DNA of 64,000 nt, from the NCBI GenBank assembly GCA_022402465.1, contig JAKRSH010000024.1, positions 62,001-126,000 on the forward strand, given 5' to 3'. A program made the translations under genes and the position numbers. Within the stretch, counting starts at the first letter, position 1, and each line of letters begins with the position of its first letter. The notes below the pieces were generated by a model, which saw only the letters and a program-made list of their open reading frames with translations, did not search any database and was not told the DNA's origin. The DNA is from Leptospiraceae bacterium (lineage in GTDB: Bacteria; Spirochaetota; Leptospiria; Leptospirales; Leptospiraceae). Shown piece after piece: positions 10,789-55,220 of this stretch.

Positions 10789-10890
10789 ATTTTTCCAAAA
10801 TCAAGCTAGAACGGATTTCTAGCTCTGCTTTATTTGCATCGAAAATGAAAAATCCTTGATTTTGGTGTCTTTGCAATCCGTTAATGAAGT

Positions 10891-12084
10891 ATGGGTTTTG
10901 CATTTCGTGAACTAAAGCTTTTTGATCCCAAGGCGAGACTTCTTGTGGATGAAACATTTAAAATTGCTGTCTCAGAGCAGCAGGCGGAAGATCCCTTAGC
11001 GGACCTTCTTGTAGCTAGTGCCAATCCAGAGGAAGCACCTGGCAAAAATTTCCAAGATTTTAGAACCAAGGGTCATATCACTGGAAATTTAATATCCATA
11101 CAAGGACCCAAGGGTGGAAATTATTTTCTATGTGTGAACCATAAGGGCGAAGTAATACTTTTTGAATATGCCCAAGGGAAGATTGCTCCTGCTTGGAATA
11201 TAAGTATACCTGGAGCTTTTTATAGAGCACCTGTTATTGTGAATGGTGTTGCATTTGCAGTCAACAAACAAGGTACAATATCAGCGATTCGTTTGAATTG
11301 GTCAGAAGATGGTAAGCCTGCAGAACCAAGCATCATCTGGCAGAAGCCCTTAAACCAAACTGTTTTTTCAAAGCCATTTGCAACGGATAAGGTTTTATTG
11401 ATAGCTTCTATGAATTCTTTACATGCCTTTGATTGCTACTCAGGAAGTGAAGTCGAGTCAGGTAAGCTTGGACGTAAATTATGGGAACAGAGAATTAGTA
11501 GTACTGTTGGCTCCCCAGAATTAGGCAAAGGATCTGTGTTCATAGGCTCTGAGGATAAATCAATTTATGCATTTAGTTATTCTGCTGATGGACTTTCTAG
11601 TGCTTGGAAGGTCAAAACCGATGGGCCAGTTCGATCAAAACCATATTTAAGCAAAAAAGGAAATTATTTATTGGCTGCATCTATGGATGGAGTCTTGTAT
11701 GCTCTTGAGCCAAATTCAGGTAAGGCACAATGGACTTTTCCTGCTAGAGCTGCTATACATTCGGAAATTATTTCTTTCTTAGATGGCAATGATGAATACT
11801 TTGTATTCGGGAATGATGAAGGAACGATTTTTTGCCTGAATTTTTATGGAAAACTACAGTGGAAGTTTAATACGGATGGAAGAATTCGATGTGAATTCTT
11901 GTTACATAATAATACAATCTTTTTCGGATCAGAAGATAATCATCTCTATGGTTTGAATAAGACCACTGGCAAATTGGTGTTAAAATACAATACCGACGGC
12001 AATATCAATGGAGCGCCTGTTATTTTTGATAATAGATTGTTCATAGGCTCAACTGATAACTTTATACATGGAATTTACATCTAA
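10891..12084 (+). CDS. PQQ-like beta-propeller repeat protein
   Basis: A 397-residue protein with a variable N-terminal part (1-60), then about eight propeller blades of some 40 residues. Each has a strand pattern such as GSEDKSIYAFSYSADG, AASMDGVLYALEPNSGKAQW and GSEDNHLYGLNKTTGKLVLK. These are PQQ/pyrrolo-quinoline-type repeats as in BamB, used mainly for protein contacts; the residues for PQQ-enzyme catalysis are not evident. No signal peptide is seen, so it may be cytoplasmic, unlike BamB. It is the first gene of a tight three-gene run with a membrane protein and a tubulin-like GTPase, which suggests a role as an adaptor in that complex. Confidence 0.85.
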   Translation: MGFAFRELKLFDPKARLLVDETFKIAVSEQQAEDPLADLLVASANPEEAPGKNFQDFRTKGHITGNLISIQGPKGGNYFLCVNHKGEVILFEYAQGKIAPAWNISIPGAFYRAPVIVNGVAFAVNKQGTISAIRLNWSEDGKPAEPSIIWQKPLNQTVFSKPFATDKVLLIASMNSLHAFDCYSGSEVESGKLGRKLWEQRISSTVGSPELGKGSVFIGSEDKSIYAFSYSADGLSSAWKVKTDGPVRSKPYLSKKGNYLLAASMDGVLYALEPNSGKAQWTFPARAAIHSEIISFLDGNDEYFVFGNDEGTIFCLNFYGKLQWKFNTDGRIRCEFLLHNNTIFFGSEDNHLYGLNKTTGKLVLKYNTDGNINGAPVIFDNRLFIGSTDNFIHGIYI

Positions 12085-12095
12085 GGAGAACTACA

Positions 12096-13004
12096 TTGAT
12101 TTGGTTTTTAGCACAATACGATAGCCCTTACTCTCCTGAATACGTTAAGCGTATAGAAGATAAGGCTGATAACTTCGAGACATTATTCTTCTTTTTGATG
12201 TTAGTGTGTATCTTTTTATTTTTGTATATTGTTTATCAATTTATTAGAATTCGCAGGCTTTCCGCAAGTCTTCCAGAGGACAATCGATACAAAACTCCTA
12301 TAGAGCCTAAACCTGAAGGAAAAACAAAAAAGGCAGCCAAGATTCCAGAACCTATAGTAGATAAACCAGCACTTGATACTCAAGCTACACTTTCAGCTAA
12401 GATGCCCAAGCAATCTGATATTCCAGATCCTGGTTTGATTTTTAAATATGTTCTTAAGGCTGACTCTCCTGAAAAAACTATCTCTATAGGTCAGAAAGAA
12501 GGAACGATAAAATTATACTCTACTGAAATTGTAGATCATCACTTAACAATAATGATTCGACAATTGGACAATTCTAGAAATAGAGACATTTACGATTTAC
12601 CAGAAAAGATTGAAGAAGAGTATGTGGTGGATTTTCGGCGAGGTGGTAAGCTTTTGTATCTTCTTCCAGGAGAAAGTAAAATCCAAGAAATGGGTGCGAG
12701 AATGAGGATTTATATTAAATCCAAACCCGATCCTACAGGAGATATTTCTCTAGGGAGTATAGATCCCCAAAGTCCCATACGATTTCGATTAGGCGATAGG
12801 CTTACCCAAGATGGAAAGTTTAGGGGTGGATTTTTTGAATTTCATTTCTTTACAAAAAATATTGATACAGTAACCCAATCTGGAATTCCTGTGGTTGAGA
12901 AACAGTTCTTTCTAAAATTATACAAAATCTACCCTGGTTATGACACAGCAAGCCAGAATGGAGAGGGTCTCTTTCCTATGATAGATCCTTTTGCGAAAAA
13001 ATGA
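12096..13004 (+). CDS. Single-span membrane protein of the tubulin-like operon
   Basis: 302 residues. The TTG start is chosen because aaggag lies 7 bases upstream and the first residues (MIWFLAQYDSPYSPEYVKRI) precede one strong transmembrane helix (about residues 29-50, LFFFLMLVCIFLFLYIVYQF). A Pro/Lys-rich linker (65-110) leads to a predicted cytoplasmic beta-rich domain (110-295). That domain contains a DFRRGGKLLYLLPGE segment and a LGDRLTQDGKFRGGFFEFHF segment, broadly reminiscent of PilZ-type barrels but lacking a clear RxxxR. It starts 11 bases after the propeller gene and overlaps the GTPase gene by four bases. It probably anchors the GTPase to the inner membrane. Confidence 0.75.
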   Translation: MIWFLAQYDSPYSPEYVKRIEDKADNFETLFFFLMLVCIFLFLYIVYQFIRIRRLSASLPEDNRYKTPIEPKPEGKTKKAAKIPEPIVDKPALDTQATLSAKMPKQSDIPDPGLIFKYVLKADSPEKTISIGQKEGTIKLYSTEIVDHHLTIMIRQLDNSRNRDIYDLPEKIEEEYVVDFRRGGKLLYLLPGESKIQEMGARMRIYIKSKPDPTGDISLGSIDPQSPIRFRLGDRLTQDGKFRGGFFEFHFFTKNIDTVTQSGIPVVEKQFFLKLYKIYPGYDTASQNGEGLFPMIDPFAKK

Positions 13005-16000
13005 GCGATATACAAAAAGCCATAAAACGAGTATTAGATGGTGATAAACCGGCCGTACGTAAATCCATAATTATCGGTGTCGGTGGTTCAGGTATGAAGG
13101 GTGTTCTCTCTGTTAAGAAATGGATGGAAAACAATCTACCGAATGAAGCCTTTCGTTATTTACGATTTGTTGGAATTGATACTACTGATATTGAGACGAG
13201 TATAGAAGCTCAGGGTGGAAAATACAGATTCCCATCTAAGCAAATGTTCCAAGAAGAAAGTAGAATGCTCTACCTTTCTTCTCCAACACCACCTGAATTA
13301 TCCATGGATTTTCTCAGAGATAAATATGCAAATGATCCAGCCTATGACTGGCTTCCTAATCCCGATGTCTACGACATCTCAACAAGAGCAGGGCAGGGAG
13401 CCAACCAAACAAGACCCTTAGGACGAATTGCATTTTTTGATAACCAAGAAAAAATTCGAGAAGCATTAATCAAAGAAAGAGATCGTTTGGACGAATTGTC
13501 CAATACTCCTAAGTATTTTCAGCTTTTAGATGTAAAAGAAGAAGATAGAAAAGAAGAGATGATCTCTTTTGAAATTAAACCAGGTATTAATAAATACTAT
13601 TTTCAAGATAAAATTGAGAAAGGAAGAGAATTTATAGCGCTTGAACCTGATGCACAAGCAAGAGCAATTTTGGCACCTCATTCCAAGTCCATGATTCAAA
13701 TTGAATCCTTTCCTCAAGATGAGAAAGGATATCATTTTGCAGTAAATCCTAGTCGATTCGCTGGCAAAACATTTAATTTCAAGGGAGTCCATGTTAAACG
13801 CGATGGGCAGATTTCCATATTTATCACCTGTTCTATCGTAGGCGGAACAGGCAATGGAATGATACTCGATATCGCTGCTATGGCAAAAGATATCTTTAAG
13901 GATCACTGGCCACTTCCTAGAATTTATGGAATCTTAGTTCTACCATCTGCCTTTAAGAAGGTTGTTTATAATCGAAATGCTAGAGCCAATGCTTATGCAG
14001 CCTTGAAAGAATTTGACTATTTCATGAGCGGGAATTCTTTTAAAGCAAAATACCCAAGTGGTAGAGAAGTAGTAGTCAATGATCAAATTTTTGATAATGG
14101 TATGCTGTATTTATTAGATATTGAGAACATGGCTGGCAATACTTTGCAGGGTCGTGATCAGGTGCAAGAACTTACAGGTCAATTTATTTCTACCTTTGTT
14201 GCATCCACTGTGGGTGGTGCCATAGAAGAAAGAATGGTGAATGATTCGACACGCGTATCGGGTTATTTTCCAGAATCTGAAGGTTCTAAGCGTAAGGCAT
14301 GCTTCAATTCATTTGGTATCTCAAGAGTTGTCTATCCCGTAGAACAGATGACTAATATAGGATATAAGATAACAGCGAATAAGCTAATTGAAAATTTTGT
14401 TAAAGAAGTAAGTCCAAGATTGCTCTTGGAAACAATTGGTGATTTAAGTAAGGGTTTAGTTCGTGCACTTAGATTGAATTGTCTTTCTTTGTTTGAGATT
14501 CTTTATCCAGACTACCAAATGGATATGGATGTTGAATTCAAGTCATGGAATCTGAGAATGGAAGCTGCCTTAGCGAAGAATGATCCACGAGGTGTTCTTG
14601 CTATTATGGATTCTGTTTTTCGTGATTATGGTCCAGAAGAATCTGAAAAAATCAAAACAAATTATCTCAGTCGTATCCAACAGAGATCTAGATTGGAAGT
14701 GGAAAAGTTCGCAACCATCTTAACAGAAGAAATCCACAAGTATATGAAAGATCCCAATCGAGGATTTCATTTTGCAGAGTCTATACTTGGACTTCTTTTG
14801 GATAAATTGGATCTTTACCAAAAGAAATACTACCAAGAAAGAGTTGGTTTACAGAGATACTCCCGTGAAGACATGCAAGCTGCCATGGAAGATATTGAGT
14901 CATCTGGGACAGCATTTAGCAAGGATACTGCGAAGAATTTTATCAAGATGCAAGATTTTAACTTCCGACAATTGGTCTTTGAATCCTTGCTTTCTTCCGC
15001 AGAGAATTTTATTCGAGATTTGAAGACATCCGTCTTTAATATTCGCAACAATGAAGTTTTAACTATTAAAGAAAAAGTGTTAGGACTTCAGAAGACTCTA
15101 GAGAAAGAAATCCAAGAAGAAAAATTCGAACTAATAGAGAAGAAAAATCCACTCTTCTTCTATTTAATCAATCCAGATGAGATAGATCAATTCTTGCATA
15201 GATATTTCTATTCTAGATTATCCATAGAAGATATGTCCAATGAGGTCGATTTTATTCATATGGATAGAGAAGATGATGCCATGCAGATTCTTACAACCCA
15301 TTTGATAGCAACGCGAGGACTTTCTATTCTTGATAAGAAGGCAGATGAAATTCAGGACATTTTGAACAGAACCTATCCAGCCTTATTGTCCTTAACTCCT
15401 TTGGAGATTAAGAAAGCACTTGCCGAGGAACTTGAGCAATCCGAAGACAAATTAGAGGTATCAGAATCTACTCAGAATAAAATTGAAATGGAAAGTATTC
15501 GTACTAAACTTTTTCAGCTAATTTATTCGAGAATGAGCGGAGTTAACTTCAATACTATTAGCATCAAATCAGTACTAGAAGAAAAGAAAATCCCACTCAA
15601 GAAACTTTTAGAAAAGTTGGACACATTTTCAAGGCCCTATATTTCCGTAGAAGCATCAGGCTTGGATGCTATGGAATACTACAGAACGGTTTCAAATTTT
15701 CCATTGAATACTTATGAAGATGGAGATGATGATAGCAAAGTTCAAGAGAATGACTTGCCAGGAAGATTGGATCACTATAAGAAACGATCTTCCATAGTTC
15801 CAGCGATCAGCGTAGAGAATTTTGAAGTGCCATCTATCTGCAAGCCTTATGAGATGATATCCATAGGCATTCTTTTAGGTGTGCCCATTTATAAAATTCA
15901 AAACATTGAAGATAGTATGAAGGATTATCATGCATTGATGGAAGAGCGTTCTCATCCCTTGCATTGTTTTAATAATCCTAAACTAGATGCAAAATACTTT

Positions 16001-16825
16001 CCTGATCCTATGCGTGATTTGAATTATCTCAACCCGGCTAGGTTGTGGGATGGTTTACTTCAATTTGGAATTCTAAAGCAAAAAGATTCCGTCTTTGAAT
16101 ACGATGAAAGTCTTGCTATGAACCTGAAAGAAATGGAGGCAAGGGAAGGTTACAAAGACCAGCTTCTTGATTTAGAAAAGAAGATCCTTGCCTCAGGTGG
16201 ATATGAAAATATGTCTGCTAGCTTACTCGCTCAATCCATCCAAGCTTTGGCTATGCTTGCTAAGCTGAAAGATGGTTCTATAGTCTTTCGTCGTGAGATA
16301 TCATTTATAATCGCAGATATTCTTGATGGTGATGGAACCGCCGAACGTGCTAAGGAAAAAAATCTAAGTAAAGACGCCTACATAGAAAAATACTTAAAAC
16401 CTCCTAAATTTCAAACGCCTAATGATTTGGTAAAATTTCTATCTTCTCTAGATGGAAAGGTTCGTTCCTTTCTAATAGCAGATATCAAGAAGACAATTGC
16501 AAATACTAAATCCAACCAACTATCTGGAGCCCCTGTTAGTCTTCCTGCATCCAAAGTACAATCTACGAAACTTCCTAGCTTCAAAGATAAGATGGCATTT
16601 TATGAATATTTCGAGAAAAAGGGATCATTAGAATGGCAACGCTTGATGAAGGAAGAAATGGTTCGCAAAATGTCCACGCATTTGGGATCCTATGATTTCA
16701 GAATGGACTATGACCCAACTCTCTTAGATAGAAAGAAAATTACGGATTATTTAAATGAAATGAGGGACAAATTGCCAGATGTAGTAACTTGGGAAGTCGC
16801 GGTAAATAATAAGATAATTAAATAG
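13001..16825 (+). CDS. Large tubulin/FtsZ-like GTPase
   Basis: A 1274-residue protein whose N-terminal part (about 20-450) matches the tubulin-like (Tubulin_2 type) superfamily. The first glycine loop is GVGGSGMKG (26-34). A T3-like FVGIDTTD follows (57-64). The tubulin signature loop is CSIVGGTGNGM (277-287), equivalent to GGGTGTG/S of FtsZ and tubulin. The remaining 800 residues are mostly helical and contain no recognised domain. Members of these large FtsZ-like families have been proposed to remodel membranes, distinct from cell division by FtsZ; experimental data are scarce. It shares an operon with a beta-propeller protein and a one-span membrane protein, and a hairpin terminator follows the stop. 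Confidence 0.83.
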   Translation: MSDIQKAIKRVLDGDKPAVRKSIIIGVGGSGMKGVLSVKKWMENNLPNEAFRYLRFVGIDTTDIETSIEAQGGKYRFPSKQMFQEESRMLYLSSPTPPELSMDFLRDKYANDPAYDWLPNPDVYDISTRAGQGANQTRPLGRIAFFDNQEKIREALIKERDRLDELSNTPKYFQLLDVKEEDRKEEMISFEIKPGINKYYFQDKIEKGREFIALEPDAQARAILAPHSKSMIQIESFPQDEKGYHFAVNPSRFAGKTFNFKGVHVKRDGQISIFITCSIVGGTGNGMILDIAAMAKDIFKDHWPLPRIYGILVLPSAFKKVVYNRNARANAYAALKEFDYFMSGNSFKAKYPSGREVVVNDQIFDNGMLYLLDIENMAGNTLQGRDQVQELTGQFISTFVASTVGGAIEERMVNDSTRVSGYFPESEGSKRKACFNSFGISRVVYPVEQMTNIGYKITANKLIENFVKEVSPRLLLETIGDLSKGLVRALRLNCLSLFEILYPDYQMDMDVEFKSWNLRMEAALAKNDPRGVLAIMDSVFRDYGPEESEKIKTNYLSRIQQRSRLEVEKFATILTEEIHKYMKDPNRGFHFAESILGLLLDKLDLYQKKYYQERVGLQRYSREDMQAAMEDIESSGTAFSKDTAKNFIKMQDFNFRQLVFESLLSSAENFIRDLKTSVFNIRNNEVLTIKEKVLGLQKTLEKEIQEEKFELIEKKNPLFFYLINPDEIDQFLHRYFYSRLSIEDMSNEVDFIHMDREDDAMQILTTHLIATRGLSILDKKADEIQDILNRTYPALLSLTPLEIKKALAEELEQSEDKLEVSESTQNKIEMESIRTKLFQLIYSRMSGVNFNTISIKSVLEEKKIPLKKLLEKLDTFSRPYISVEASGLDAMEYYRTVSNFPLNTYEDGDDDSKVQENDLPGRLDHYKKRSSIVPAISVENFEVPSICKPYEMISIGILLGVPIYKIQNIEDSMKDYHALMEERSHPLHCFNNPKLDAKYFPDPMRDLNYLNPARLWDGLLQFGILKQKDSVFEYDESLAMNLKEMEAREGYKDQLLDLEKKILASGGYENMSASLLAQSIQALAMLAKLKDGSIVFRREISFIIADILDGDGTAERAKEKNLSKDAYIEKYLKPPKFQTPNDLVKFLSSLDGKVRSFLIADIKKTIANTKSNQLSGAPVSLPASKVQSTKLPSFKDKMAFYEYFEKKGSLEWQRLMKEEMVRKMSTHLGSYDFRMDYDPTLLDRKKITDYLNEMRDKLPDVVTWEVAVNNKIIK

Positions 16826-18879: not shown

Positions 18880-20316
18880 TCAGGGCAGTGGTCCCGTATA
18901 ATCTGTTCCTTGGCTTCTTGGAGCATGGAAGGTAATGTCAGCGGGCAATCTAGGAAGAGTCACCTTACGGGTCGCAACTCTTTCAGCAACGTTAAATTCT
19001 TGTAAGAAAATTTCTCCCGAATTCGTTTGGTACAAAATGAAGGCAGCATCCCAAGTTCCAAATAATTTAGGCGCCGAGCCTCCTGTGAGAATTGCTTCTG
19101 CAGGAAGTATGGATTTAGTTGTGATTGTTTCCAGGTTCTCTGCATTCAATACATGAAGAATTCCTTGGTTGTCTAGGACTAAAATTTCTTTACCTTCTCT
19201 TTCTTCTGAGCTTATATTTCTTCCTATGTAGCTTGGAAGTGATCTTGAAATTATAGTATTATTGCTACCTTGGATTCGAAACAATTGAGTTTCTGAATTT
19301 GATCCAAAATTTCCATAAAACACAGGTCTAGTACTTCGCCCACCAAGTGAATAATTGTTATTTACAAATAAGGATTTAAGCACCGCAAGCTTAGCTCCGG
19401 TGGAAATTCTGGCAAAAGTATAGCTTCCCGCACCTGATGTTGCATTTGTATCAAAGTGTTTAATTAAGAGAACATCTGAGTTACAAGGAAAGGCTAGATA
19501 GTGGTCGTATAAAAAAGTTAGATTAAAGTTAGAAAAATTATTTCCTGCTTGGGCAAATCTATAGGCTGCGGGTATTCCCCAGGATGTGCAAGTTTGATCA
19601 ATTCCTTCCTCTGTCCCAAAACTAGTTCCTGTTCCTCCCGATCGAAAGTTAATTGTATCTGCATTTGTAGAACGGATCAGTTTACCTTCATTGATCCAAA
19701 TCGCAATACCATTGTGGGAAGCAGGCGGAGAACTGGGTGAGTTTATTGTGATTCCTGCATTTTCATCTACCATAGTACTCTCTTCTAAGACTCGGATTTG
19801 CCCATTGGCATAAGTAAATCCTGATTTTCCATTATAAGAGAAAGCTCGGACAGCAGTTGTGCCACCTATGTCCAAACTTACACCTGCATGACTTGGGTCT
19901 ATGATTTGAGGATTGGACTTATCGACATGATAATGGTCCCCATGTGGACTTAAATTGAGTCCTGCGTCTATAAATCTAAATCTAGTTCCATCGGCATAGA
20001 TAGAAAATCTACCTGCTTCAGATGTTACTAAGTTAGATGGATTGGAGGAAGCTAAAGGAGAAAATCCTCTATCCACATTCCAATCGAAAACGACAGGTCC
20101 TTGTGTGGATGAGTATGAATATACCGATCTCCCTCGAAAAGGCCGTGGCTCTTGGATAACTTGGGTTTGGGAAGCGGCTAAGGCAAGACCCAGAAGTAAA
20201 AGATTTGCTGAATTGTCTTCCTTTTCCTTTGTGATAAAAGGAATTTTGCAATTTGAAAAGCTAAAGAAAAGTAAAGCAATGAAGTAAAGAATCGATTTAA
20301 TTGATTTGTGGTTCAA
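18880..20316 (-). CDS. Beta-propeller lipoprotein with HGDHYH metal motif (AztD-like zinc chaperone?)
   Basis: A 478-residue lipoprotein: signal peptide, then lipobox FSNC (Cys23). The mature part looks like repeated beta blades (for example FSYNGKSGFTYANGQIRVLE, AVLKSLFVNNNYSLGGRSTR and EILVLDNQGILHVLNAENLE), and a His cluster HGDHYH occupies residues 125-130. This combination of a periplasmic propeller and a His/Asp cluster recalls AztD-type zinc chaperones, which hand zinc to an ABC-transporter binding protein. I am not certain of homology. It is divergent from a run that includes a metal-binding protein and an ABC transporter, which supports a role in zinc handling. A 7-base inverted repeat lies between the two promoters. 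Confidence 0.6.
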   Translation of the reverse strand: MNHKSIKSILYFIALLFFSFSNCKIPFITKEKEDNSANLLLLGLALAASQTQVIQEPRPFRGRSVYSYSSTQGPVVFDWNVDRGFSPLASSNPSNLVTSEAGRFSIYADGTRFRFIDAGLNLSPHGDHYHVDKSNPQIIDPSHAGVSLDIGGTTAVRAFSYNGKSGFTYANGQIRVLEESTMVDENAGITINSPSSPPASHNGIAIWINEGKLIRSTNADTINFRSGGTGTSFGTEEGIDQTCTSWGIPAAYRFAQAGNNFSNFNLTFLYDHYLAFPCNSDVLLIKHFDTNATSGAGSYTFARISTGAKLAVLKSLFVNNNYSLGGRSTRPVFYGNFGSNSETQLFRIQGSNNTIISRSLPSYIGRNISSEEREGKEILVLDNQGILHVLNAENLETITTKSILPAEAILTGGSAPKLFGTWDAAFILYQTNSGEIFLQEFNVAERVATRKVTLPRLPADITFHAPRSQGTDYTGPLP

Positions 20317-46229: not shown

Positions 46230-47678
46230 ATGAGCGATTCTAGCAAAAAAACAATCGAAAAGAATGCGAATAGCGAATACGTATTCACAGCTTACGGGGA
46301 ATTCCTTTCTTATTTTCATGCCCATCTAGAAGTATTCAAAAGATTTAATAAATCAAAAAGTGTTCCACAAGATAAATCAAGTAAGCAAATACAAAAACTG
46401 AAAGCATTCATGGCAGGAAGTGTCAAGAATCTGGATCAATACTTTCATAAGATTCCGGAATTTGCAGAAATCCTCGAAACAACAAAGGATGAACTTTCCG
46501 CATATCTAAACGAACATTTTCTAAAGATTTTACCAGTAGTCCAAGAAAAATTCAAAACTACGGAAATTGAAAAGCTTCAATCTGGTTCACATAAAATTTA
46601 CGAACGAATCACTGAAGAAATTTTAGAAACTACAGATTACAAGTTTCCAGATGGATTTAAGTTTTCAGAAGTTTCAGGAGTTTTGGTTATAGAAAATACT
46701 CAGACGGGAGAACTCATACAGCCCCAAGGTTTGATGGGTGCACCAAGTGGAGCTCCCGCAAGTACAGGACTTGATCCTGCAGCTGAAAAAAAGCAAGCAC
46801 CTGTTAAAGTATTTATTGATAAGCCAATTCTGGAAGAAATCGTTGAAATTTATGGATCGGTACTCCAGGGAACAGAACTAAAAATTGTCTCGCAGATTGA
46901 GCCAGAAACACTAGCTCCTATCAAAAATCTACCTTCTACAAATTCAGAAGATGTATTGGAAGATATAGATGATATTGATTTTGAAGAACCTGAAGAAGAG
47001 CCAGAAATGGAAACTGAAAGTTATTCCAATTCCTATGAGAACGATTCTGAATCTTCTGATCCAAGAGAACACCCCGAAGGAGTTCTAGATGATCTCCATG
47101 ATTTATTGGGTTTTAATTCAGAAGAAGATCAACCACTTGTATCTGCAAATATTGACTCTTCTTGCAAACGATTTAATATCGAAAATTATTTTACAATACT
47201 TTCCAATGTGAATGCCTTCCAAGCTAGAGCAGATGCTGATGGATATAAATCATGGTTGAACCAAGAATCTGAAATCACCAAACTTGTTGTTAGCTTACGA
47301 ACTCATATAGCCAAAGAAATGAAATCTGATTTTGTTGATTGGGATAGTGTTATTGAGCAACTAAGATCTAAGACGGAATTTAACAAAGCATCCATTGAAC
47401 TTATGAAAGAAAAAGTGACCCATTTCCAGTGGATAAGAGTTGCCCTAGATCGTTGCACTGCTGAGTTTAAGAAAGCAGATGCTGATTTACTAACATTGGT
47501 CAAAAAGGCTTGGCCTCATATCCAAAAGTCATTTATGCTTTCTCCGGATTATGACAGCGTACTTGGTCAATTGAAAAACATTCTTTCAAAGGTAGCCAAT
47601 GAAGCGCATCGCAAAGAATTAGTTAGAATTTTAACACTTACTTTAAATTTCTGTAAAACAAAATACCCACCAGAGTAA
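46230..47678 (+). CDS. Uncharacterised soluble acidic protein
   Basis: 482 residues without a signal peptide or membrane helix. The N-terminal part (1-160) and the C-terminal part (about 310-480) are mainly helical. The middle (about 235-290) is a disordered acidic linker (DVLEDIDDIDFEEPEEEPEM, then a Ser/Asn-rich stretch). No motif of known function is visible. It starts a run of three genes (6-base gap, then overlap) followed by the large alpha-2-macroglobulin gene. Function unknown. Confidence 0.75.
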   Translation: MSDSSKKTIEKNANSEYVFTAYGEFLSYFHAHLEVFKRFNKSKSVPQDKSSKQIQKLKAFMAGSVKNLDQYFHKIPEFAEILETTKDELSAYLNEHFLKILPVVQEKFKTTEIEKLQSGSHKIYERITEEILETTDYKFPDGFKFSEVSGVLVIENTQTGELIQPQGLMGAPSGAPASTGLDPAAEKKQAPVKVFIDKPILEEIVEIYGSVLQGTELKIVSQIEPETLAPIKNLPSTNSEDVLEDIDDIDFEEPEEEPEMETESYSNSYENDSESSDPREHPEGVLDDLHDLLGFNSEEDQPLVSANIDSSCKRFNIENYFTILSNVNAFQARADADGYKSWLNQESEITKLVVSLRTHIAKEMKSDFVDWDSVIEQLRSKTEFNKASIELMKEKVTHFQWIRVALDRCTAEFKKADADLLTLVKKAWPHIQKSFMLSPDYDSVLGQLKNILSKVANEAHRKELVRILTLTLNFCKTKYPPE

Positions 47679-49655: not shown

Positions 49656-52600
49656 TTGAAATTTAAGAGAATTCAACCTTGGGAGCTTACCTTGCGATAC
49701 TCTTTTGTAATATTTTTCCTTTCCTATCTTTTCGCTTTTTCTATTTCTGCTCAATCTAATTATACTATTGAATCTTTTTCTCCATCGGGGTTTATTAAAA
49801 AACCGAATCAAGTTTCAGTTCGGTTTAGCGAACCCATGGTTTTATTCGGTGATCCTAGGGAAGCTAGTCCTGTTTTTGATTCCAATTGTTTAGAATTAGG
49901 GACTTCACGATGGTTGGATGACCGAAATTGGGTGTTTGATTTTAAACAGAATTTAGAAGGAGGTACAGAATGTAATTTTACATTACGTTCCGATGTAGTT
50001 TCTCTTCAAATGAAAACTTATAAAGGGAATCGTAGTTTTAGTTTTTCAACTGGTGGAGTTAACATTCTTCGTAGCCAGCCTTGGAATGGCTCCTTTGTTG
50101 ATGAAGACCAAGCCTATATACTTTTGTTAGATGGAATTGTGAATGAAGATTCCTTACGTAGGGAATTGTATTTTTTATCAAGCACCTTGCCAGGCAAAAC
50201 AGGAATAGAAATTATAAAGGGTTCACTTCGAGATGAAATTCTCAAACAGAATTATTATAATAAGGATGAACTTAATTACATTTATATCATACAACCTAAA
50301 ATGAATTTTGCACCAGAATCTAAGATCAAATTGTTTTGGTCAAAGAATATTGAATCCAAGACTGGAGTAAAAAATAACCAAGACCAAGTTATGGAATTCA
50401 CGGTGCGCTCTCAATTTAAGGTAAGCTTCTATTGTGAGAGAGAAAATGCGGAGAAAAATTGCATTCCCTTCTCAGATATGGAACTTAGATTTTCTTCGGC
50501 TATACCTTCTAAGTTTGTGAAATCAATTTTTCTCAAGGACAAAGATGGGAAAAGCTTAGCTGCCGAATTCATTTCGGACTATGATAAAAATTCAAATACA
50601 ACAAACAGTGTCAAATTTTCAGGACCTTTTCCAGAAAAATCTGAATTTACAATTCATCTTCCTGAATTAAAGGATGAAGCTAATAGAAATTTAGCAAATG
50701 CAAAAAATTTTCCATTAAAAGTAAAAACAGAACGTTATCCACCTTTAGCAAAATTTTCATCTCATTTTGGAATTTTAGAAGCTAAGGCATCTCCAATTTT
50801 ACCTGTGACAATTCGTAACTTAGAAGCCAAGACCACAGGTAAAATAATATCATTTCACAACAAAGACTTCTCTATTGCAAATATCAAGAAATGGCTTAGG
50901 TTAAGCATGAATACGAAAAGAGATCGTTCCATGTTCCAATCTGAGACATCAGGTCTACGAAATCTTGAGCTTCCGAAAACGCAAAACGATGGTTCTATGG
51001 AAGTAGTTGGAATCCCTCTTTTGAAACCAGGATTTTATGCTGTTGAAATAAATAGTAGAATACTTGGAAATTCTCTACTTGCAAAGGATACAAATTTCTA
51101 TGTTCCAACTACAGCTTTGATCACCAACCTAGCTATTCATTTAAAATGGGGAAGAGAATCATCTTTAGTATGGGTAAGTGAACTTTCTAGCGGAAAGCCA
51201 GTGGGTGCAGTTTCTATAGAGATCCAGGATTGCAAGGGAAAAATCTATGTTAGTGGAATCACCAATGAAGAAGGTATTTTAAATATTAGTAATCTCCCTT
51301 CTAAAGATTACATTCCATATTGCTCATACAAATCGTATGATAATGGTTTGTTTGTTATGGCAAAGAAAGACGATGATGCTAGCTTTCTACACTCTTCTTG
51401 GAATAGTGGTATTGAAACTTGGAGGTTCAACCTTCCTTATTCAGCTTTTCCAAATGAAAAAATTGCTCATACCATCTTAGATCGTTCTCTTCTTCGTGCA
51501 GGGGAAACTCTGTCCATGAAACATATTCTTCGTAAACACTCTATGAAAGGTTTTGTATCACCCGATACTAAGACAGCACCTAAGTATCTTGCTATAGTTC
51601 ACGATGGTTCAGAAGATCTAGTAAATATAAATTTAAAATGGAATTATCCAGGTTATTCCTTGAGTGAATGGAAAATTCCTAAGACAGCAAAGCTTGGGTC
51701 TTACACTTTGTATCTTACCTCAGAACCCAATCAAAAATGGGGACAGTTCCTTGGAAATTTTCGAGTTGAAGAGTTTCGCCTCCCCATATTAAAAGCATCC
51801 ATTTCTTCTCCCAAATCTATTTGGGTAAATGAATCTTTTATTCCTGTAACTTTGCAAGCGAGCTACCTTGCCGGTGGTCCTGCATCTAAATTGCCAGTTG
51901 ACTTAAAGTATAGGATAATACCTGCAAGTTTTACTCCTAGGGGCTTCGAAAAGTTTTCATTTGCTGCTACAGCTATAGAACCAGGTAGATTAGAAAATTA
52001 TGATACTCCAGCTAAGATTGATTATACAGAATTAGAATTGGAATTGGATAAAAATGGAATTAAAGATGAAAAGATAGAATGGAAGCAGAAAAATTCCTCT
52101 AGTTTACTTCAGATGGAAATGAGTTTCTTGGATCCAAATGGAGAAATACAATCCATATCTTCTAGAATCAATCTTCTGCCTGCAAATACAATGGTTGGAA
52201 TAGCCTCCGATACTTGGTCTATGAACCAAGCCGATATACAAATTCGGACAGTGGTAGTTGATGGGGATGGTAAGGGTATAGCCTCTACTCAAGTGGAAGT
52301 GGAAGCTTTTAAATATGAAACTTTTTCACATAGAAAGCGCTTAGTGGGTGGATTCTATGCCTATGAAAGTTTCTCAGAAATTAAAAAGATAGGCTCTGTA
52401 TGCAAGGGAAGTACTGATGCTAGGGGATTTTTCCTTTGCAAGTCCAAAGATTTTCCTGAATCGGGTGATTTTGTATTTCAAGCTAAATCTGTGGATTCTT
52501 CGGGCAAAACGTCCTATGCAAATGTGAATCTATGGATAGCTGGCAAATCAGATTGGTGGTATGCTGCCTCCGATCATGATAGAATGGATGTAATCCCAGA

Positions 52601-55220
52601 CAAAGATAATTATAAGATGGGTGAATCAATTAAGTTGCAAGTAAAAGCACCTTTTCGGGATTATACGGCACTCGTGACTATAGAGAGAGAGGGAATACTA
52701 AAGTCCTATCTTCGTACGGTTGACTCAAAGAATCCTTTTATCACTATTCCAGTTGATAGAGAATTCATACCGAACGCCTTTGTTTCAGTTTTGGCAGTGA
52801 GAGGTAGGGTCGATAGTCCTAAAGAGACCGCTATGGTTGATTTAGCTCGACCATCCTTTCGCTTAGGGATAACGGAGATTAAAGTAGGATGGGAGCCACA
52901 CCAATTATCTGTTAAGGTTAGTACCGACAGGCAGGAGTATAAAACTCGAAGCAAGGCTAAAATAAATATCAACGTAACAGATTTCCAAGGAAAGGCTATC
53001 ACTACAGGTGGAGAAGTTGCCCTTGCAGTAGTAGATGAAGCATTATTAGAGTTAGCTGGGAATCCATCTTGGGATTTGCTAGCTGCAATGATGGGAAGAA
53101 GAGGCTATGAGGTAGACACCTATACTGCTAGCATGCAGATAGTTGGGAAACGTCATTTCGGAAGAAAGGCAATTCCTGCAGGAGGTGGAGGGGGCAACCT
53201 TCCTACTCGTGAGCTTTTTGACACCTTGCTAAAGTGGCAGGGCAGAATTCCCCTTGACAAAAATGGACAAGCATCTATTGAAATTCCCCTCAAGGATTCT
53301 TTAACTTCTTACCGAGTCATAGCAGTAGCAAGTGCAGGTCTGGATCTATTCGGTACTGGTTCTGCAAATTTTGCATCCACCCAAGATATTTTATTGTTTA
53401 GCAGTCTACCACCAGTGGTTCGAACAGGGGACCAATTCTTCCAAGAATATACCGTGAAGAATAATACTAAGGAAACCAAAAAATTACAATTTGAATTAGA
53501 AGTTGATGGGACCAAGTTTCCAATGCAAGTAATTTCCTTCCTAGCAGGTGAAACGAAACGTGTTGCCTGGGATGTCTTAGTTGGGAAGAAGATTGATCAA
53601 AGAATCTCTAAATTGAATGTGATGGAAGATGGTAAGCTCATTGATGCAATAAAAACCGTTCAGAAAGTAACAAAATCAATTCCTATTCGCGTCTTACAAG
53701 GAACATTAAGTCAGATTGATAATGAATACAATCTTTTGTTAGCTGCTCCTAAGGATGCTATCCAAGGGGATTCTAGTGTTGAGATTAATCTTAGTTCAAG
53801 TATTATTGGTTCAGCTGATGGGATTAAGAAATATATGAAAGAATATCCTTATTCCTGCATGGAACAAAAAGTTTCCAAGGCAATAGTATCAGAAAATACG
53901 GAAGAAAGAAAAAGTATAAATTCAGAAATTGGAAATTACCTTGATTCCGATGGTTTGGTGAAATTTTTTCCTAGTTCAATCTTTGGGGATGAGATACTAA
54001 CTGCCTACATCCTCTCTATTACAAATGAAGCTGGATGGGTGCTTCCTGCAGAGGCAAGGGATAAAATGATTACCGGTTTAAATCGATTTTTAGATGGAAC
54101 CTTAGTTCGCCAAAGAGGCTATAATTTTGCAGACCAAACCTATAGGAAGCTTCAAGTAATGGAAGCACTGTCAAGGTATTCAGCCTTAAATGAAGATCGT
54201 CTCTCATCCATACTTGTTGATGTAAAAATTTGGCCAACAGCTTCTGTCTTAGATCTGGTCTCCATTCTGAAAAGACTTCCCGCAAATTCTGAAAGAAGCA
54301 AGCAATTAAAGGAAGCGGAAAGCAATCTGAGAGCAAGATTGAATCTACAAGGTAGAGAAATGAATCTCGCATCTACACAGTCCTCCTTATGGTGGATGAT
54401 GGGCTCCGCAGACCAAGATGCTAGTAGATTTATAAGTTATGCCTTAGATACTGTAAGTTATAGTCCTGATCTAGGGAAAATGGCAAGATCCTTTGTTGCA
54501 CGAATGAAGGAGGGAAAATTCTCCAATACTTTAGCCAATAGTTATGCCTACCTTAGTTTAAAAAAATTTGCAAGTACTCAGGAGAAAGAAAAAGTGGATG
54601 GAGTAACCAATACTAAGTTAGTTGAAATGCTAAGAACCACAGAGTGGAAGGATACAGCCAAAGAAGAGCATAACTTAGAATTTAGTCTTGCAAGTAATAA
54701 GGAACAAAATCTCCAAATTAAACACAATGGTTCCGGGAAACCTTGGGCTTCTATACAGGTCTCAGCGGCAGTTCCTTTAGAAAAAGATTGGGATAACGGA
54801 ATCCGAATTCGTAAATCCATCCAAAATATTGAAAAGAAAAATCTTCTTGGGGGGTATTCCGTTGGTGATATTGTCCGAGTAAAAATCCAGTGGGAACTAT
54901 CTGCACCAAGAACTTGGGTTGTGATTGATGATGCCATCCCTGCTGGTTCTACCATTTTAGGTTCTGGACTAGGACGTGATTCCCAAGCAGCAACTCAGGG
55001 TGAGATTCAAACAGACTATTGGCTTAGCTACCAAGAAAGAAGTTTCTCGGGGTTTAAGTCTTATTATGAATATTTACCTGCTGGAAAATACTCTTTGGAA
55101 TATACATTTCGATTGAATACCCAGGGTAAATTTGTACTTCCACCTACAAGAGCTGAGGCAATGTATTCTCCTGATATATTTGGTGAGACACCAAATGCAA
55201 TTTGGTCAGTCTTGCCTTGA
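49656..55220 (+). CDS. Bacterial alpha-2-macroglobulin family protein with thioester
   Basis: An 1854-residue exported protein: a TTG start, a signal peptide (cut near ISA-QS), then a chain of beta-sandwich MG domains. A bait-like region precedes the A2M domain (DLFGTGSANFASTQDILLFS), and a thioester domain contains YSCMEQK, with Cys1401 and Gln1404 forming the internal thioester. The C-terminal receptor-like domain follows. Such proteins trap proteases in the periplasm or at the surface. In many bacteria the gene is paired with penicillin-binding protein 1C; no such gene is here. Instead it lies after three unknown genes and before a membrane phosphoryl-transferase-like enzyme. No lipobox is evident at the signal-peptide end. 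Confidence 0.88.
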   Translation: MKFKRIQPWELTLRYSFVIFFLSYLFAFSISAQSNYTIESFSPSGFIKKPNQVSVRFSEPMVLFGDPREASPVFDSNCLELGTSRWLDDRNWVFDFKQNLEGGTECNFTLRSDVVSLQMKTYKGNRSFSFSTGGVNILRSQPWNGSFVDEDQAYILLLDGIVNEDSLRRELYFLSSTLPGKTGIEIIKGSLRDEILKQNYYNKDELNYIYIIQPKMNFAPESKIKLFWSKNIESKTGVKNNQDQVMEFTVRSQFKVSFYCERENAEKNCIPFSDMELRFSSAIPSKFVKSIFLKDKDGKSLAAEFISDYDKNSNTTNSVKFSGPFPEKSEFTIHLPELKDEANRNLANAKNFPLKVKTERYPPLAKFSSHFGILEAKASPILPVTIRNLEAKTTGKIISFHNKDFSIANIKKWLRLSMNTKRDRSMFQSETSGLRNLELPKTQNDGSMEVVGIPLLKPGFYAVEINSRILGNSLLAKDTNFYVPTTALITNLAIHLKWGRESSLVWVSELSSGKPVGAVSIEIQDCKGKIYVSGITNEEGILNISNLPSKDYIPYCSYKSYDNGLFVMAKKDDDASFLHSSWNSGIETWRFNLPYSAFPNEKIAHTILDRSLLRAGETLSMKHILRKHSMKGFVSPDTKTAPKYLAIVHDGSEDLVNINLKWNYPGYSLSEWKIPKTAKLGSYTLYLTSEPNQKWGQFLGNFRVEEFRLPILKASISSPKSIWVNESFIPVTLQASYLAGGPASKLPVDLKYRIIPASFTPRGFEKFSFAATAIEPGRLENYDTPAKIDYTELELELDKNGIKDEKIEWKQKNSSSLLQMEMSFLDPNGEIQSISSRINLLPANTMVGIASDTWSMNQADIQIRTVVVDGDGKGIASTQVEVEAFKYETFSHRKRLVGGFYAYESFSEIKKIGSVCKGSTDARGFFLCKSKDFPESGDFVFQAKSVDSSGKTSYANVNLWIAGKSDWWYAASDHDRMDVIPDKDNYKMGESIKLQVKAPFRDYTALVTIEREGILKSYLRTVDSKNPFITIPVDREFIPNAFVSVLAVRGRVDSPKETAMVDLARPSFRLGITEIKVGWEPHQLSVKVSTDRQEYKTRSKAKININVTDFQGKAITTGGEVALAVVDEALLELAGNPSWDLLAAMMGRRGYEVDTYTASMQIVGKRHFGRKAIPAGGGGGNLPTRELFDTLLKWQGRIPLDKNGQASIEIPLKDSLTSYRVIAVASAGLDLFGTGSANFASTQDILLFSSLPPVVRTGDQFFQEYTVKNNTKETKKLQFELEVDGTKFPMQVISFLAGETKRVAWDVLVGKKIDQRISKLNVMEDGKLIDAIKTVQKVTKSIPIRVLQGTLSQIDNEYNLLLAAPKDAIQGDSSVEINLSSSIIGSADGIKKYMKEYPYSCMEQKVSKAIVSENTEERKSINSEIGNYLDSDGLVKFFPSSIFGDEILTAYILSITNEAGWVLPAEARDKMITGLNRFLDGTLVRQRGYNFADQTYRKLQVMEALSRYSALNEDRLSSILVDVKIWPTASVLDLVSILKRLPANSERSKQLKEAESNLRARLNLQGREMNLASTQSSLWWMMGSADQDASRFISYALDTVSYSPDLGKMARSFVARMKEGKFSNTLANSYAYLSLKKFASTQEKEKVDGVTNTKLVEMLRTTEWKDTAKEEHNLEFSLASNKEQNLQIKHNGSGKPWASIQVSAAVPLEKDWDNGIRIRKSIQNIEKKNLLGGYSVGDIVRVKIQWELSAPRTWVVIDDAIPAGSTILGSGLGRDSQAATQGEIQTDYWLSYQERSFSGFKSYYEYLPAGKYSLEYTFRLNTQGKFVLPPTRAEAMYSPDIFGETPNAIWSVLP

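Follow-up and report, generated by a model that had tools for sequence, protein, structure and literature searches.

The operon at positions 10891–16825 of the window (the whole 64,000-nucleotide stretch of Leptospiraceae DNA that was analyzed) was found to encode a large tubulin-like protein of the known FtsZl1/Tubulin_2 family, a one-span membrane anchor and a beta-propeller protein. The balance of the evidence, drawn from sequence, tips slightly towards these products forming an accessory, membrane-tethered and GTP-controlled scaffold at the inner membrane, which would act conditionally. The three open reading frames lie on the same (+) strand in the order propeller, anchor and 1274-aa tubulin-like protein (Table 1), with a gap of 11 bases between the propeller and anchor genes (12085–12095) and an ATGA overlap between the anchor and FtsZl1 genes (13001–13004), just as a preliminary description of this DNA had laid them out. 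The gene upstream of the operon is ilvN, with a terminator-like hairpin in between; it is weak as a terminator candidate, since the number of sites in the terminator scan was not above that of shuffled sequences. The neighbours of the operon in the window are housekeeping genes (ilvBN, a thiL-like gene, rplM and rpsI). Elsewhere in the window, an 1854-aa bacterial alpha-2-macroglobulin (bMG3, MG2, bait region, A2M and bMG10) is encoded at 49656–55220, and two proteins of about 480 aa, neither of them with a Pfam match at E 1e-5, are encoded at 46230–47678 and 18880–20316.

Table 1. Positions in the window of the operon's genes, predicted domains, motifs and flanking hairpin
Feature	Position	Strand	Basis
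Terminator-like hairpin, ilvN/operon interval	10804..10824	+	Consensus scan, 8 pairs
PQQ/BamB-type beta-propeller protein, 397 aa	10891..12084	+	PF13570 E 1.3e-38, PF13360 E 4.2e-23
Candidate N-terminal docking peptide, propeller residues 5–24, FRELKLFDPKARLLVDETFK	10903..10962	+	Conserved in 11 propeller proteins
One-span membrane anchor, 302 aa, TTG start	12096..13004	+	AGGAG at 12084–12088, 7 bases upstream
Transmembrane segment, about residues 31–54 of anchor, then RIRR	12186..12257	+	Sequence; model helix 27–57
Predicted cytoplasmic beta-rich domain of anchor, residues 110–299, undescribed	12423..12992	+	Homology to stand-alone family A5
FtsZl1/Tubulin_2 protein, 1274 aa	13001..16825	+	PF13809 E 1.1e-49
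T1-type loop GVGGSG, residues 26–31	13076..13093	+	Conserved in alignment
Subfamily-specific beta insert, residues about 180–262	13538..13786	+	Absent from vWA-type FtsZl1 proteins and L010; model strands 178–269
T4 signature loop GGTGNG, residues 281–286	13841..13858	+	Alignment; FtsZ profile match over T4-H4-S5-H5
IEERMVNDSTR, residues 408–418, at expected T7 place	14222..14254	+	Conservation in subfamily alignment
Long helical arm, residues 447–900; helices 545–583, 588–615, 641–712	14339..15700	+	AlphaFold2 model m2f302acf0090

The family assignment of the large protein is carried by the Pfam model Tubulin_2 (PF13809), the family described as FtsZl1 by Makarova and Koonin in 2010 (PMC2875224), which matched with 170 bits against a curated cut-off of 27 (E = 1.1e-49). 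PF00091 gave E = 1.2e-5, under that family's cut-off, and there was no match among NCBIfam or PADLOC models. Taken together, the tubulin-type loops and the Tubulin_2 match of the sequence are far above chance, and with GVGGSG and GGTGNGM (residues 281–287) where they had first been read, a GTP-binding domain of the tubulin superfamily is supported. The large protein had also been presented as undescribed, which does not hold for a family published in 2010; an FtsZ-like group bearing the Tubulin_2 domain was equated with the work of Makarova and Koonin by a 2023 study (PMC9871819). Loops T1, T2, T3 and T4 are conserved in the FtsZl1 alignment, as are D373 and N376 at the T6 place. No FtsZ_C domain was matched by Pfam in the protein, and the NxDFAD form of the T7 loop is absent from it. 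T7 was not confidently identifiable; at the expected place stands IEERMVNDSTR, of which nearly every position is conserved in 15 or 16 of the 16 subfamily members, and its conserved E409, E410 and D415 come after the predicted H7, where model confidence is below 50. The host genome's own FtsZ carries NVDFADV, and a canonical ftsQ-ftsA-ftsZ cluster lies elsewhere in the genome (G000:C38), so division is covered by canonical FtsZ and FtsA.

For the predicted structure, an AlphaFold2 model was obtained from 20 sequences over residues 1–1200 (mean pLDDT 69), the last 74 residues lying outside it. Its elements follow one another as S1 (21–27), H1 (28–45), S2 (54–60), S3 (90–93), S4 (271–278), T4, H4 (287–298), S5 (307–314), H5 (325–342), S6 (369–373) and a helix at 385–401, leading into the long helical arm; the strand and helix names are our own assignment, and the modelled order is compatible with a tubulin GTPase domain. 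Residues 447–900 have pLDDT values of mostly 75–90. The extension of about 800 residues, previously taken to be helical and free of known domains, is indeed mostly helical in the model and has no Pfam domain, and the secondary structure of this model shows the layout of the FtsZl1 family, in which an FtsZ-like head is followed by an extended helical or coiled-coil middle and then by a helical C-terminal region. When the profile of the large protein was compared with that of ten FtsZ sequences from spirochaetes, T4-H4-S5-H5 aligned at E = 5.5e-4. Foldseek with the whole model gave no match at E ≤ 0.001; its highest-probability matches include tubulins and TubZ (up to 0.66), and also helical toxins and dynamin-like proteins, so that sequence profiles are the main basis for the tubulin fold. 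The structural check proposed in the preliminary description thus came out in part: sequence, secondary structure and profiles fit a tubulin fold, whereas Foldseek did not return one at that threshold.

Membrane attachment of the complex, as had been proposed, is likely and would be provided by the one-span anchor. Because its single hydrophobic span is followed by RIRR, the C-terminal part is predicted to be cytoplasmic; the anchors of family f2 seemingly have two spans. The predicted cytoplasmic domain matched no Pfam family across 13 members and no PDB sequence, and the model of the anchor (pLDDT 67.6) gave no significant Foldseek match; an FHA or PilZ domain, suggested by motif reading, was rejected on these Pfam and Foldseek results. 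Correspondence of the anchor to the cytoplasmic tail of vWA partners was likewise discarded, the profile comparison giving a probability of 1.2%. On the other hand, the domain proved homologous to a 215-aa stand-alone one-span membrane protein, the family A5 (profile comparison, 98.4%, E = 4.6e-15). Families f1 and f2 comprise 30 genomes, and A5 occurs in 29 of them, including the host genome (G000:C25); the sole genome without it is a 0.9-Mb assembly (G029). Since A5 is near order-wide, this homology makes the tether part of an order-wide membrane protein family. A5-family members with no known domain are encoded at G000:C25:67273–67869 (−), L100:6177–6821, L101:5405–6052 and L098:6141–6698, and in two loci an A5-family gene adjoins a threonine-synthase-like gene. 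One genome (G202) has, beside its FtsZl1-linked anchor, a second, solitary anchor without FtsZl1 (L097:5259–6110, on G202:C431); close by are genes for an OmpA-like lipoprotein and a polysaccharide-deacetylase-like protein.

The beta-propeller identity of the first gene product, also read earlier, was confirmed by PF13570 and PF13360, and the protein shares 31–36% identity with 10 neighbours of other FtsZl1 genes. It has the PQQ-repeat propeller fold of BamB (YfgL); unlike BamB, it scored only 90 bits in the BamB equivalog search against a cut-off of 285, has no signal peptide or lipobox in its sequence, is predicted to be cytoplasmic and is encoded in an operon with FtsZl1. A periplasmic BamB-like propeller with a signal peptide was therefore rejected, since none was found in the sequences and the BamB cut-off was missed. 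At the N-terminus of the propeller a motif with the consensus NPxLKxLKxFDP is conserved. In five loci of family f2 that have no propeller (L016–L020), a small open reading frame of 87–126 aa lies just upstream of the anchor gene and starts with this same motif. An HMM of the motif, built from the 11 propeller proteins and searched in 5983 six-frame segments, retrieved the five small frames at E = 4e-6 to 8e-4, the next best being 0.64, and no second copy was found in the host genome. The small proteins are acidic and of low complexity; they are probably disordered, and the propeller motif kept in them is probably a docking peptide. Since the motif is kept without the propeller, what is conserved in this gene is its N-terminal peptide and not the propeller, and docking would be the natural function to read from it.

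Tubulin_2 was found in 25 of 393 Spirochaetota genomes, 19 of which have the FtsZl1 type of about 1275 aa with the beta insert. The anchor profile at E < 1e-70 retrieved exactly the same 19 of 393 genomes and none of the 374 others, and the anchor and FtsZl1 genes are adjacent in 19 of 19. Fourteen of the 19 loci retain the order propeller-anchor-FtsZl1 (the window, L013, L014, L015, L055–L059 and L061–L065); they span four families and two classes, and together with the co-occurrence of anchor and FtsZl1 this retained order upholds the earlier view of the genes as one tightly linked three-gene module. Most relatives are apparently draft or metagenome-assembled genomes. L058 is apparently the same contig as L022, from a 'Spirochaetes bacterium' assembly, and the FtsZl1 genes of G193 (L057) and G196 (L061) are in pieces in the assembly, by assembly error or decay, the propeller frame of L061 being truncated too. 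In the 19 loci, anchor and propeller are the only conserved partners; vWA, P-loop GTPase, kinase and OmpA-type partners are lacking. All three genes are under purifying selection (dN/dS in close pairs with unsaturated dS: FtsZl1 0.02–0.05, anchor about 0.15, propeller about 0.10).

In the host class, the module, a relative or a remnant is present in 11 of 48 genomes (nine with an intact protein of about 1275 aa, a diverged, contig-cut relative in G044 and a 160-residue remnant full of stops in G039) and absent from 37; the stop-rich remnant points to loss. None of the seven other genomes of the family has the module, so the three-gene order is not conserved across Leptospiraceae, where the preliminary description had proposed to test it. 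These absences weigh against the module being a core cytoskeleton that serves the spirochaete cell body or the periplasmic flagella, a role that a spirochaete host and the modelled tubulin-type head with its very long helical arm could suggest. FlhA was found irrespective of the module, in 45 of the class's 48 genomes and in all 30 of the good ones, and the canonical ftsQ-ftsA-ftsZ cluster is present, so that we regard this role as improbable; the link to periplasmic flagella drawn in the preliminary description was given up, FlhA being near-universal in the class. Patchy presence while flagella are near-universal argues that the module is accessory and not a core shape or flagellar system.

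In the FtsZl1 tree, grouping of the window gene with family f2 was not rejected (AU p = 0.18), and the between-class FtsZl1 distances, short relative to those of FtsZ, hint at some horizontal transfer between classes. These distances and the patchy distribution would also suit a phage-defence or other conflict module, the least probable of the readings considered here: vertical descent was not rejected, the neighbours are housekeeping genes, and a defence system was discarded because PADLOC gave no match and neither 50,697 phage records nor viral contigs contained a relative. One genome (G021) carries both a vWA-type FtsZl1 locus (L070, G021:C8) and an anchor-type locus (L020, G021:C15), indicating that the two kinds are not simple substitutes.

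In the accessory scaffold that we favour, FtsZl1 would be kept at the inner membrane by the cytoplasmic domain of the anchor, and the propeller protein would attach to the complex through its N-terminal peptide. Binding of GTP to the FtsZl1 head would drive reversible assembly into a membrane-bound scaffold, which under particular conditions may organize or bend an inner-membrane patch or an envelope machine. On this view the propeller would serve as an exchangeable cargo or regulatory surface, and the docking peptide would be what is essential in that gene. GTP binding, polymerization and membrane shaping are what we infer for this module; two things would point to membrane shaping, namely the tethering and the published gene-context argument, which was disputed by a reviewer of Makarova and Koonin 2010 (PMC2875224).

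The main rival, possible although we think it doubtful, is a non-polymerizing, GTP-switched scaffold for signalling or transport, in which FtsZl1 would be a membrane-held GTPase hub and the propeller would present clients or sense a ligand. T7 and the second tubulin domain are unrecognizable here, as they were in the original family description (PMC2875224), and transport or signalling was proposed by a reviewer of that paper. The nearest phenotype that we found comes from Synechocystis, in which phototaxis is impaired when sll0445 (Tubulin_2) is disrupted and proteins of pilus assembly and of the photosystems co-fractionate with Sll0445 (PMC9880817); this also agrees with such a hub. However, filaments are formed by every characterized member of the superfamily according to the original authors (PMC2875224), and among the genes that flank the operon there is no conserved kinase, transporter or sensor. 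In addition, PilT was over the cut-off in none of the 48 class genomes, so the pilus link is not directly transferable, and a type IV pilus link of the module was rejected on this ground.

The accessory scaffold can be drawn further, into a tubulin-superfamily machine with a new-domain tether taken from an order-wide membrane protein, peptide-plugged adaptors and filaments without the usual T7 contact, a picture that we consider unlikely in full and offer tentatively; if it is true, the docking peptide outlives the propeller behind it. FtsZl1 is among the most diverged members of the tubulin superfamily, and its function has been open since 2010. The operon gives a compact three-gene version without vWA, GTPase or kinase genes, with a defined tether, a candidate docking peptide and a clean presence/absence among relatives, and because the set is so compact, three proteins would be enough to test GTP binding, polymerization and membrane action of FtsZl1. 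The anchor also gives access to an undescribed family of proteins that nearly every genome of the order encodes.

Compared with canonical FtsZ, which has about 400 aa, an FtsZ_C domain and the NxDFAD T7 loop, the window protein has 1274 aa and lacks both. It resembles the FtsZl1 family (PMC2875224) in its N-terminal FtsZ-like nucleotide site, a T6–T7 region that is hard to recognize, a long helical middle, a helical C-terminal part, a normal FtsZ also in the genome and a membrane partner gene, and it differs from the published family by an 80-residue beta insert before the T4 strand. The vWA-type FtsZl1 loci of Spirochaetota (L066, L067, L069, L070 and L060) share the Tubulin_2 protein and membrane partners with the window operon but have a vWA protein, which the window anchor does not resemble, and in L069 (1777–13518) also an Hsp70 (PF00012, E = 4.5e-100); the L069 locus further encodes an 838-aa protein, unmatched in Pfam, with a GLGKFG loop at its start. 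The Synechocystis cluster Sll0445–0447 (PMC9880817) likewise contains a Tubulin_2 protein and has a mutant phenotype; its partners carry FtsA-like and DivIC-like annotations, neither a propeller nor an anchor of the window type is reported for it, and it is linked to pili, whereas PilT was not found over the cut-off in the window's class. No description of the propeller/anchor/FtsZl1 combination or of the docking peptide was found in the literature covered, most subscription journals lying outside it. In place of the vWA, P-loop GTPase, kinase and OmpA partners of the published FtsZl1 system, the window operon has a one-span anchor together with a propeller or, in related loci, a docking-peptide protein, that is, a new tether and adaptor, and this type of operon is a variant new to us.
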